Assembly (NCBI RefSeq): GCF_003097355.1
Contig: NZ_PYUI01000017.1
Span: 1 to 64,000, forward strand
DNA length: 64,000 nt
Direction of reading: 5' to 3'
Source of the DNA: Arthrobacter sp. H-02-3
GTDB lineage: Bacteria > Actinomycetota > Actinomycetes > Actinomycetales > Micrococcaceae
In this document: one piece after another, positions 35,957 to 56,600 of the stretch
Position numbering within the stretch: position 1 is the stretch's first letter
How the letters are laid out: each line of letters begins with the position of its first letter
Translations under genes and position numbers: made by a program
The notes under the pieces: generated by a model
What the model saw: only the letters and a program-made list of their open reading frames with translations
Told to the model about the DNA's origin: nothing
Databases searched by the model: none

Positions 35957-37039
35957 TCAGCCGCCAAGACGGAGGGTGATCAGCAGCCCGATCAGTACGA
36001 CCACGCCGGCCAGAAACATCGCGGACTTGGGATTGCCGAAGTTGAGCGTCCATCCCAGACCGAACCGGCGCGGAACCATCAGCGCGTGGTCGTCGCGGTT
36101 GACATAGAACAGGCCACCGCGCCAGTACTTGTCGTCGTCGCGGTGGGTCAGCCCGGTGTCCTTCTCGCCCTCATCCCGCTCACGGTTGTTTCCCGCCAGG
36201 ACCATGATGGCAACCACGACGGCGGCCAGGACCGGAAGCACGACCATCAGCGGCGCCCACCGCGTGACCGTCCCGGTCCACCTCAGCAGCGATGATCCCA
36301 GCATCCCCACGTCGATCATCGCGGCCAGCCCGAGCAGCGCCTTGGAGCCCAGGGACATGTACTGGCGATACCAGCGCGCGGAGCCTACCGGGTGCGCCGG
36401 GTCGAGGTCGGGCCGGCTGTGGAAGATGGCCGCCGCGATACCCGCCAGCAGCGCGGTCACGCCGATCTGCACGAACACCAGAGAGAAGGCGGTGCCGACC
36501 GATTTGGCGGCCACCCGGTTAGGCGCGCCGTTCGCGCCATAGTGGACCGCGAGCATCTCGGGCATCGACGGGTAACTGACCACACCGATCACCACCGTGG
36601 TGACCGTGACGATCACTGCAGGGGCCAGCCAGAGCCAGGGAAACCGCGGCGGATCTGTCCGCAGTCCGGTGTCCACCGCAATGCCTTGATGCAGGCCCTC
36701 ATACCAGCCTCCGGCGGCCTTGGCGGCCCGGATCTCATGGTTGGCCAGGAAGAAGCAGCCGTAAAAAACGCCGAGGAGCACCACGACCGACAGCGGCAGC
36801 AATACCGTTTCACCGGTCACGCCGTAGATGGCGCCGCCGACCACGGCGGCAACGAGTCCACCGACGAGTACCCGCCATCGGTAGATACGGGTCTGCCTGA
36901 CCACCGTCGGGTCTCCGGCACGCCGGGCTGGCACCCGGACTCCGAAGGGGACAGTCGGGCCGGTGATCGAGGGCAGCACGAGGGCAAGCGTGAGCACCAG
37001 TGCTGACAACATGGAACTCAGGGCGATGGCAACGGTCAT
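35957..37039 (-). CDS. DUF1648 / DUF5808 membrane protein
   Basis: A 360-residue polytopic membrane protein, with hydrophobic segments near residues 5-25, 50-95, 140-165, 195-220, 250-300 and at the C-terminus. The DUF1648 signature YPSMPEMLAVHYGANGAPNR lies at about 165-185. The DUF5808-like segment DDKYWRGGLFYVNRDD...NFGNPKS is near the end. The start ATG 37039 overlaps the GntR stop in ATGA, so the two are translationally coupled. Similar regulator-membrane pairs occur in Firmicutes and actinobacteria; function is unknown. Confidence 0.85.
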   Translation of the reverse strand: MTVAIALSSMLSALVLTLALVLPSITGPTVPFGVRVPARRAGDPTVVRQTRIYRWRVLVGGLVAAVVGGAIYGVTGETVLLPLSVVVLLGVFYGCFFLANHEIRAAKAAGGWYEGLHQGIAVDTGLRTDPPRFPWLWLAPAVIVTVTTVVIGVVSYPSMPEMLAVHYGANGAPNRVAAKSVGTAFSLVFVQIGVTALLAGIAAAIFHSRPDLDPAHPVGSARWYRQYMSLGSKALLGLAAMIDVGMLGSSLLRWTGTVTRWAPLMVVLPVLAAVVVAIMVLAGNNRERDEGEKDTGLTHRDDDKYWRGGLFYVNRDDHALMVPRRFGLGWTLNFGNPKSAMFLAGVVVLIGLLITLRLGG

Positions 37040-37392
37040 GGCATGTCCTCGGGCTGTGTGGCGCCGAATGAATCGAGTACGGATCGACAGATCTCGAGAA
37101 CCTCGTCGGGTGGCAGTCCTCTGGCCACGGCCTCCGCCAGGAGGGTCCGTGCCCTCACGGTCCACTCGGCGGAGAACGGCGGGGCCGCGGCCGTGGAAGT
37201 CACCACCGCCCCGGACTTGCGGTTGAGCCGAATCACGCCCTGCTGGCGCAGGAGGTCGTACGCCTTGTTCACGGTGTGAAAGTTGATCCCGAAGTCCGCA
37301 GCGAGCGTCCTGGTGGCCGCCAACGAGCTGCCCACGGTCAGCACACCCTCGGCGATCGCCTCCACGATCCGGTCCCGAAGCATTCGATGCAC
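37036..37392 (-). CDS. GntR family regulator (YtrA-like)
   Basis: A short GntR protein of 118 residues with the winged helix at about 5-70 (VGSSLAATRTLAADFGINFHTVNKAYDLL) and a small helical C-terminal part, as in the YtrA subgroup. These often control transporter or membrane genes in the same operon. Start is GTG 37392 or ATG 37383; an in-frame stop lies just upstream, so the N-terminus is slightly short for the family. It is coupled to the DUF1648 gene and divergent from the radical SAM gene. Confidence 0.87.
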   Translation of the reverse strand: MHRMLRDRIVEAIAEGVLTVGSSLAATRTLAADFGINFHTVNKAYDLLRQQGVIRLNRKSGAVVTSTAAAPPFSAEWTVRARTLLAEAVARGLPPDEVLEICRSVLDSFGATQPEDMP

Positions 37393-37426: not shown

Positions 37427-37455
37427 TTGACATTAAGTCGAACATATATTCGAAT
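37427..37455 (+). promoter_or_regulatory. SOS (LexA) box within promoter of the radical SAM gene
   Basis: A consensus -35 TTGACA (37427-37432) is followed after 17 bases by TCGAAT (37450-37455), 6 bases before the ATG at 37462. Between them lies TCGAACATATATTCGA (37438-37453). It differs by one base from the actinobacterial LexA consensus TCGAAC-N4-GTTCGA. The box would block the -10. This strongly suggests DNA-damage control of the downstream gene and a leaderless mRNA. Confidence 0.75.
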
Positions 37456-37461
37456 GGTGGC

Positions 37462-38655
37462 ATGAGATGGGATGCACAATCACTGAAGCGCGGCAGCTCC
37501 GGAAGCGACGCGTCTACGGGAGGCCCGTCCACCTCGTCGGAATCCGCCAATATCGGGTCCGCCACTCCCCCGTCCCCCGATGCCCTGCTGCCCCTGGCCG
37601 GACTGGTTCGGTCCGTCTCCACCCCGGAGTTTGCCGGGATCACTTTCCATGAGGTCACCGCCAAATCGGTGCTCAACAAGGTGGTCGCGGGTTCTCGGAT
37701 GCCGTTCGACTGGACCATCAACCCGTACCGCGGCTGCAGCCATGCCTGCGTCTACTGCTTTGCCCGCAAGAGCCACACGTACCTGGACTTCGACGCCGGC
37801 CTGGACTTTGACAGCCAGGTGGTGGTCAAGATCAATGCTGCCGAGGTCCTGCGCAGGGAACTGGCCAGGCCCTCCTGGCGGCACGAGCACGTGGCCCTCG
37901 GCACCAACACGGACCCCTATCAGCGCGCCGAGGGCCGCTACCAGCTCATGCCCGGCATCATTGGCGCCCTCGCCGACTCCGGCACGCCCCTGTCCATCCT
38001 CACTAAAGGCACGCTCCTGGCCAGGGACATCCCGCTGCTGAAGCATGCCGCGGCCCAGGTGCCGGTCGGGGTGGGCATCTCGCTGGCCATGACCAACGAG
38101 CACCTGTCCGAGGCCGTGGAGCCCGGTACACCGGGTCCGCGGGCACGGCTGAAGCTCATTTCCCGGCTCAGGGAAGCAGGCCTGCCCTGCGGCGTCATGG
38201 CCATGCCGATCCTGCCGTGGCTTTCCGACGGTGACGACGCCCTCAACTCCCTCTTCGGGGCCCTGGCAGCGGCCGGCGCCACGGGGGTCACAGCCGGCGC
38301 GCTGTACCTGAAGCCGGGGACGCGTGAGTGGTTCATGCAGTGGATTGCCCGCGAACATCCGCACCTGGCGGGCAAGTACCGCCGGTTGTACGGCAGCGGG
38401 TCCTATGCCTCAAAGGAATACCGGGCGTGGCTGGCCGGTCGCATCCGCTATTTCAAGGACCTGCACGGCTTTTCCGGTTCGCAGGGCTTCAGCCACAGGG
38501 ACCTCAGCGGCAACGCGGATCTCAGCGATGATGCCCGGGAAGAGGAAGCCCAGTACCCGGCTGGAAGCATCCCGGACACATCCCGGTACGCCACTAACCG
38601 GCACCCCGGCACGGTGCATGCCGGCCACCAGGCAGCGCAGCCGACGTTGTTCTGA
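37462..38655 (+). CDS. Rv2578c-like radical SAM protein
   Basis: A 397-residue radical SAM protein with the 4Fe-4S cluster motif Cys92, Cys96, Cys99 (GCSHACVYCFAR), preceded by WTINPYRGC. This is the SplB-like / Rv2578c subgroup. A central barrel covers about 90-330, and the C-terminal tail is variable. I start at ATG 37462 because it follows an SOS-box promoter directly; the open frame upstream runs through the GntR gene and is spurious. The mycobacterial relative Rv2578c has been listed among LexA-controlled genes, as I recall. The substrate is unknown; a role in DNA damage response is inferred from regulation. Confidence 0.88.
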   Translation: MRWDAQSLKRGSSGSDASTGGPSTSSESANIGSATPPSPDALLPLAGLVRSVSTPEFAGITFHEVTAKSVLNKVVAGSRMPFDWTINPYRGCSHACVYCFARKSHTYLDFDAGLDFDSQVVVKINAAEVLRRELARPSWRHEHVALGTNTDPYQRAEGRYQLMPGIIGALADSGTPLSILTKGTLLARDIPLLKHAAAQVPVGVGISLAMTNEHLSEAVEPGTPGPRARLKLISRLREAGLPCGVMAMPILPWLSDGDDALNSLFGALAAAGATGVTAGALYLKPGTREWFMQWIAREHPHLAGKYRRLYGSGSYASKEYRAWLAGRIRYFKDLHGFSGSQGFSHRDLSGNADLSDDAREEEAQYPAGSIPDTSRYATNRHPGTVHAGHQAAQPTLF

Positions 38656-55107: not shown

Positions 55108-55497
55108 CTACTTGGACGGAACGAACAGCTGCTGGCCCGGCATCACACGCGCAGCGTCAAGGTTGTTCAGCTGCACGATATCGGCCACGACGTCACGGGG
55201 ATCGCGTTCCGGCGCGACGGTCCCCGCAATGGCCCAGAGGGACTCCCCCGGCTGGACTGTCACGGAAACAGTGGGCGTCACATTGAGCTGGTCCGCGGAA
55301 TCCGCCGCCTTGGCCGGAGCGTTGAGGAATCCGCTGAACGACAAGATGAGCGCTGCCAGCAGGATCAGCGGGATCCCGAAGAAGACGAACCGTCCGCGCC
55401 GGGTGAGCCGCAGCGGCGCCTGCTTCGGCCGCCGGGTGACCCCACGGTCCGTGATGCTGTGATCAAAAGTGCTGTGAAACGCGCTTGATGCTGACAT
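55108..55497 (-). CDS. DivS/ChiZ-like LysM membrane protein (SOS cell-division inhibitor)
   Basis: A 129-residue protein with a basic cytoplasmic N-terminus (1-36), one membrane helix (about 37-58) and an external LysM domain (about 78-127, VQPGESLWAIAGTVA ... VMPGQQLFVP). This architecture and its position divergent from lexA match Corynebacterium DivS and mycobacterial Rv2719c (ChiZ), SOS-induced suppressors of division. Start ATG 55497 has AGGAGGG 8 bases upstream. The SOS box at 55614 lies in the shared intergenic region. Assignment is by context and architecture, not sequence identity. Confidence 0.8.
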   Translation of the reverse strand: MSASSAFHSTFDHSITDRGVTRRPKQAPLRLTRRGRFVFFGIPLILLAALILSFSGFLNAPAKAADSADQLNVTPTVSVTVQPGESLWAIAGTVAPERDPRDVVADIVQLNNLDAARVMPGQQLFVPSK

Positions 55498-55613
55498 GAA
55501 CTGAGCCCTCCTGGACCATACGGTGCCGCCGGCGTTCTCCACATACTCGCCGCCAACCGGCCGAACCTTCGAACATAGAACCGAACAATGCACTCGACTC
55601 GCAAATCCTTAAA

Positions 55614-55629
55614 TCGAACACATATTCGA
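55614..55629. promoter_or_regulatory. SOS (LexA) box, lexA / DivS-like intergenic region
   Basis: TCGAACACATATTCGA, one base from the consensus TCGAAC-N4-GTTCGA, in the region between the divergent DivS-like gene and lexA. It is nearer the DivS-like gene, so it probably controls that promoter. Confidence 0.8.
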
Positions 55630-55680
55630 ACTTTGCTAGTTCTGTTTTAGCACTTAGTAACGAACGATGTCGAGACTCGC

Positions 55681-55696
55681 TAGAACAAATGTTTGA
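55681..55696. promoter_or_regulatory. second, weaker SOS-box-like site nearer lexA
   Basis: TAGAACAAATGTTTGA matches the LexA consensus with two changes (GAAC-N4-GTTTG core kept). It lies about 155 bases upstream of the lexA start and could serve lexA autoregulation. Confidence 0.55.
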
Positions 55697-55850
55697 AAAA
55701 GCTCTGCCGCTGGCCTACTTTTGAGGGAAAGAACAACAGCTTGTGAACTCGTTCATCGGTAGTTGATCAGGAGGGTCTGACATTTCAGGCCGGAAGTTCC
55801 CGGTGACAGCAGCCACGGCGGCCGGGTGGAACGGAAAGGCGTTGGCGAAC

Positions 55851-56600
55851 ATGGCAGCACAAGCCACCGGCGGCCGGGCCAGCTCACGGAGCGCCCAGCC
55901 TGCCCGGGCCCCCAAGAGCCTGACCGTCCGGCAGAAGAAAATCCTGGAAACGATCCAGCGCTCCGTCAGTGACAACGGCTACCCGCCGTCCATGCGCGAA
56001 ATCGGCGACACCGTCGGACTCGCCAGCCTGTCGAGCGTGACCCATCAACTGTCCCAACTGGAAAAGCTCGGGTACCTGCGTCGCGACCCAAAGCGTCCAA
56101 GGGCCATGGAAGTGCTCATGCCGCTGACCCTGGACGAGGGTACGAGGGCCATTTCGGGCGTCGAGAAGTCCAGCGGCCTCCGCGCCGTCGGTGGCCTCTC
56201 CGTGACGGAACTCGCCAGCGCCACCGACACGGCAATGGTGCCGTTCGTCGGACGCATCGCGGCCGGCGGACCGATCCTCGCCGACCAGGTGGTGGAGGAC
56301 GTCATGCCCCTGCCGCGCCAGCTGGTGGGCCACGGCGAACTCTTTATGCTCAAGGTGGCCGGCGACTCGATGATCGATGCCGCCATCTGCGACGGCGACT
56401 GGGTGGTTGTCCGCCGCCAGGGTGACGCCGTGAACGGCGACATCGTGGCCGCGCTGCTCGATGATGAAGCAACGGTCAAGACGTTCCGCCAGCGCGACGG
56501 CCACACCTGGCTGCTGCCGCAAAACACCCAGTACGAGCCCATCCTCGGCGACCACGCCGTGATCATGGGCAAGGTCGTCTCGGTGCTCCGCTCCCTGTAG
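55851..56600 (+). CDS. lexA: LexA repressor
   Basis: SOS master repressor, 249 residues. N-terminal winged helix (about 22-90: [36 protein letters not shown]). The self-cleavage site is Ala138-Gly139 (RIAAGG), with catalytic Ser173 (GDSMIDA) and Lys210 (EATVKTF). I use ATG 55851, which gives the usual N-terminus; GTG 55803, 16 codons upstream, is an alternative. Divergent from the DivS-like gene, with two SOS boxes between. A strong terminator follows. Confidence 0.96.

Follow-up and report, generated by a model that had tools for sequence, protein, structure and literature searches.

Genes for SplB-like radical SAM proteins (COG1533) have been reported under SOS control in alpha- and beta-proteobacteria (PMC3323433), in Bacteroidetes (PMC8565304, where earlier species are cited) and in the core Gram-positive SOS regulon (PMC7739468). 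Like the gene considered here, these genes carry LexA boxes upstream, and this in several phyla; they differ in that they were labelled photolyase/SplB or plain radical SAM protein, and we found no mention of the clamp or of a missing spore photoproduct lyase (SPL) cysteine in the three papers. The preliminary description of the present locus held that a damage-related role was undescribed, a claim that has to be withdrawn because SOS control of SplB-like genes was already published there. In Streptomyces venezuelae, vnz_31145 ("Radical SAM protein") shows a LexA ChIP peak and is about 20-fold up with MMC (PMC9380542); it is likewise a LexA-linked radical SAM gene, possibly of the same family. 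SPL itself requires a fourth cysteine as hydrogen donor (C141 Bs / C140 Gt) and a tyrosine relay (PMC3742179). In the open-access literature, we found neither Rv2578c joined with LexA nor a clamp-binding motif for the radical SAM family, and subscription papers may report either. Older LexA lists for M. tuberculosis and P. aeruginosa may include genes of the Rv2578c/PA0069 type. What the present analysis adds to these systems is a clamp-type tail, the distribution of this tail among homologues and the missing SPL cysteine.

We analysed a stretch of 64,000 nucleotides from Arthrobacter sp. H-02-3 (contig NZ_PYUI01000017.1, positions 1 to 64,000), hereafter the window, which contains a radical SAM gene and its presumed regulator lexA (Table 1). 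The model that best explains the locus, to which we give a probability of about two in three on the basis of the sequence and of a predicted structure, is that this gene encodes a LexA-controlled, clamp-tethered radical SAM enzyme that would act on damaged DNA. We infer LexA binding, induction, clamp binding and DNA as the substrate of the enzyme, and the reading of a DNA lesion as substrate draws on the regulation, the predicted fold and the putative docking tail.

Table 1. Features of the radical SAM locus and of the lexA region (positions in the window)
Feature	Positions	Strand	Remark
GntR regulator and DUF1648-like (by eye) membrane protein module	35957-37392	-	adjoins radical SAM gene
-35 element TTGACA	37427..37432	+	TTGAC in 80/80 relatives
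LexA/SOS box TCGAACATATATTCGA	37438..37453	+	one mismatch to consensus TCGAACNNNNGTTCGA
Proposed -10 TCGAAT	37450..37455	+	17 bp after -35 in 80/80
In-frame ATG start	37462..37464	+	6 nt after TCGAAT; conserved MRW N-terminus
Rv2578c-family radical SAM protein, 397 aa	37462..38655	+	NF038135, PF04055
Cluster motif C92-SHA-C96-VY-C99	37735..37758	+	cysteines invariant in 37 homologues
Linker, residues 344-392	38491..38637	+	hypervariable; pLDDT mostly <50
C-terminal QPTLF, residues 393-397	38638..38652	+	beta-clamp-binding-type motif
LysM-type gene (by eye)	55108-55593	-	divergent from lexA
SOS box TCGAACACATATTCGA upstream of lexA	55614..55629	+	
Second, weaker SOS-like box TAGAACAAATGTTTGA upstream of lexA	55681..55696	+	
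lexA, presumed regulator	55803..56600	+	TIGR00498, 220 bits

The promoter island of the radical SAM gene contains, as the preliminary description had reported, a consensus -35 element, an SOS box one base off consensus and a -10 that ends 6 bases ahead of the ATG. Its placing of the box between the two promoter elements holds in part only: the box lies downstream of the -35 and shares 4 bases with the proposed -10. The latter is weak (4/6 positions of TATAAT, without A at position 2), and it is because of this missing second A that a strict sigma-70 scan did not call a promoter at TCGAAT. Since the ATG stands 6 nt past the -10, transcription and translation would start at nearly the same place, and the mRNA is predicted to be leaderless or near-leaderless. 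Near-consensus boxes number 2 in the whole window versus 0.17 expected in shuffles, the other one being located upstream of lexA, and TCGAACATATGTTCGA with one mismatch occurs in only 3 places genome-wide, including the box of the radical SAM gene.

The close relatives, drawn from Arthrobacter, Pseudarthrobacter and their neighbours, comprised 80 homologue loci. Every one of them has exactly the layout TTGACN-17 bp-TCGAAT-6/7 nt-ATG, with a gap between TCGAAT and ATG of 6 bases in 29 and 7 bases in 51, a spacing that would fit the near-leaderless arrangement proposed earlier, although the -10 is weak. Most positions of the island carry 2 bits of information, versus mostly <0.4 bits upstream. 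Absence of the box from close relatives had been named in advance as an observation that would count against SOS control; the box is present in 80/80. The gene, which is single copy in the genome, was found in 61/61 genomes of the genus; in one genome of the genus (assembly 79% complete) the homologue is broken over three frames (G053:C1:1313058-1314234), as a pseudogene or through a sequencing error.

Upstream, the radical SAM gene is adjoined by a divergent GntR/DUF1648-like pair, perhaps a recent local insertion. The intergenic region that holds the box is a divergent one, with the start of GntR some 46 bp away, and one could suppose that box and promoter arose by chance or are linked to GntR, the radical SAM gene being outside SOS control. 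We regard this as extremely improbable: the box is kept in all 80 relatives and its spacing to the radical SAM ATG is fixed, whereas the pair adjoins the gene in 0/80, and the box therefore belongs to the radical SAM gene.

Beyond the Arthrobacter group, 60 further Actinomycetota homologue loci were scored for their best upstream match to TCGAACNNNNGTTCGA over 12 positions. The best score was 12/12 in 7 loci, 11 in 29, 10 in 18, 9 in 4 and 7 in 2, giving a LexA-type match of at least 9/12 in 58/60, totals that are approximate because a few matches fall within coding sequence or were anchored wrongly on account of inteins. For comparison, random 200-nt segments score at least 11 in 0.23% and at least 10 in 4.9% of cases. 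An intein carried by the radical SAM protein apparently accounts for the length of about 700 aa seen in several homologues (L140, L141, L143 and others). In most Streptomyces homologues (lineage assigned by inference) an AGGAGG-type ribosome site is retained and the box stands at about -46; the box reported for vnz_31145 is at -61, and a search of 393 Streptomyces genomes for that published box gave matches solely outside the expected setting. Some other homologues of the phylum have a leader as tight as that of Arthrobacter sp. H-02-3.

In PA0069-family relatives located on megaplasmids, GTTCN7GTTC, which is the alphaproteobacterial LexA motif, was found upstream in 9/10 alphas; it occurs 0 times in 54.8 kb of neighbouring DNA. 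An Aeromonas relative of the same family has a perfect CTGTN8ACAG (CTGTATATATAAACAG), and no recognised box was found upstream of the Legionella, Gemmatirosa and Pseudorhodobacter relatives. In three distant homologues (L275, L280, L281), an SOS-box-like palindrome lies within the first codons (EQMFE/EQLFE), which may be coincidence. LexA control appears to be kept under differing LexA motifs and a real function is therefore argued, as was done earlier for alpha- and beta-proteobacteria (PMC3323433). Altogether, the island kept in 80/80 relatives, the boxes in 58/60 phylum loci and the lineage-specific motifs of proteobacteria make SOS control of the radical SAM gene, as judged from sequence, near certain, in agreement with what the preliminary description had proposed.

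The lexA gene of the window is itself preceded by two boxes, and recA, farther on in this contig, has a weaker one. The region 55614-55696 is common to lexA and to the divergent LysM-type gene, a pair that we take to be the arrangement known for mycobacterial Rv2719c/lexA. Elsewhere in the genome, whose SOS regulon was read from single stretches, two more strong SOS boxes (G000:C19:46224 and G000:C28:27229; L146, L147) are found near short, mutually similar proteins, DUF6504-like by eye, which are likely further SOS genes. Finally, a box identical to that of the radical SAM gene (G000:C17:77265; L145) stands between a gene for a DUF418-like (by eye) membrane protein and a small ORF.

The encoded protein matches NF038135, the Rv2578c family, with 502.5 bits versus a curated cut-off of 430 and over positions 1-316 of the 317 of the profile. 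It shares with this family the MRW start and the cluster motif, without structural difference, and is thus an ordinary member; SOS regulation and the tail look like family-wide features. With the PA0069 family (NF033668) it has in common a homologous core (221 bits), a lineage-specific LexA box and a QLxLF-type tail, but it scores under the cut-off of that family and its N-terminus differs. Two viral contigs (L163, L164) encode radical SAM proteins 38-40% identical to the Arthrobacter protein. PADLOC gave no defence-family match.

Against solved structures, a profile of 37 homologues placed SPL first (E 0.004). The AlphaFold model is mostly confident for residues 61-340, save around 101-120, and its quality is poor from residue 344 onwards; its comparison with SPL gave a Foldseek E of 6e-9 and a Z of 20.4 over 279 residues, versus a Z of 15.6 for the next family, and the RNA-modifying radical SAM enzymes RlmN and TYW1 came lower in the list. 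SPL would therefore be, by a clear margin, the closest known fold. The Rv2578c/SplB-like identity first proposed is borne out by the NF038135 score and by this nearest fold.

This likeness raises the question of a true SPL, which would repair thymine dimers of the SP type when cells are dry or exposed to UV. The solved SPL structure (PDB 4FHC and mutants) also shares with the protein a cluster motif with CxYC, the cluster tyrosine Y98 is invariant (37/37), the hosts are UV-exposed soil bacteria and relatives have been named SplB in the literature (PMC3323433). However, the only cysteines invariant in the 37 homologues are the cluster ligands C92, C96 and C99, and the hydrogen-donor cysteine has no conserved counterpart: by a motif-based pairing (CTSD/TNTD), T148 takes the place of SPL C140, and an hhalign comparison with an SPL fragment was credible at its two ends only, the middle being left out. 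The relay tyrosine that comes next (Y99 Bs) is replaced by F100 in 35/37, so that the SPL pair Y97/Y99 Bs is not kept. In addition, the NCBIfam matches of the protein do not include an SPL model, and the setting is SOS rather than spore. The SPL fold thus seems present while two defining SPL features fail. We consider a true SPL improbable; it is because the family is without the essential fourth cysteine that a bona fide SPL is excluded in the preferred reading.

Another possibility is that the SOS-induced enzyme has nucleotides, tRNA, rRNA or a protein as its substrate, with a C-terminal motif meant for another partner. Radical SAM substrates are very diverse, RlmN and TYW1 do occur lower in the fold list, and repair genes were not found as neighbours: when neighbourhoods were compared throughout the phylum, neither a conserved partner nor a conserved repair gene emerged. 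Against this, the closest fold is, with a clear margin, that of a DNA-lesion enzyme, LexA control is kept across phyla and the tail is of clamp type. A non-DNA substrate therefore seems doubtful, and we retain DNA damage as the probable target of the enzyme.

Bacterial sliding-clamp-binding motifs have the consensus QL[SD]LF. The protein ends, in a flexible terminus, with a linear motif of this type, QPTLF, a variant that departs from the consensus; relatives with QLSLF or QLDLF match it. The endings seen among homologues are QPTLF, QSTLF, QATLF, QLTLL, QLALL, QLSLL, QLSLF, QLDLF and similar, and the linker ahead of them varies in length and sequence. A QxxL[FLI]-type end is present in 76/79 proteins of the Arthrobacter group, 56/75 of the phylum and 12/12 of the proteobacteria, versus a background of 1/887 ORFs and, in a second set, about 1/294 (raw 3/296, two being family members). 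The motif is missing in several distant homologues (for example L263, L265, L269 and L272), and among the more distant viral radical SAM homologues it is confined to 4/77; the tail of one viral homologue is QQTLF. In the same genome, Pol IV carries the comparable motif QLSLD. The tail therefore resembles a beta-clamp-binding motif and may serve for docking on the clamp.

The mechanism that we propose can be described briefly. LexA would occupy the box, which lies within the core promoter, and so repress the gene, until RecA-triggered cleavage of LexA frees the promoter; the 5' end of the mRNA would then be at the ATG or within about 1 base of it. The flexible QPTLF tail would dock on the beta sliding clamp, and the enzyme held in this way could work at damaged or stalled replication sites, where a 5'-deoxyadenosyl radical would most likely remove or remodel the lesion by hydrogen abstraction. 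As for the wider proposal, that a widespread SOS-induced, beta-clamp-tethered radical SAM enzyme, with no need for the fourth cysteine, reverses or remodels some lesion in DNA distinct from the spore photoproduct, we see the odds as evenly balanced.

If this is true, a core SOS gene of several phyla, called "photolyase" by analogy, would be a replication-associated radical enzyme, and a direct-reversal step would join an SOS regulon whose usual picture is one of mutagenic polymerases and recombination. The clamp motif, with its five residues, would offer a simple handle for testing the link to the clamp.
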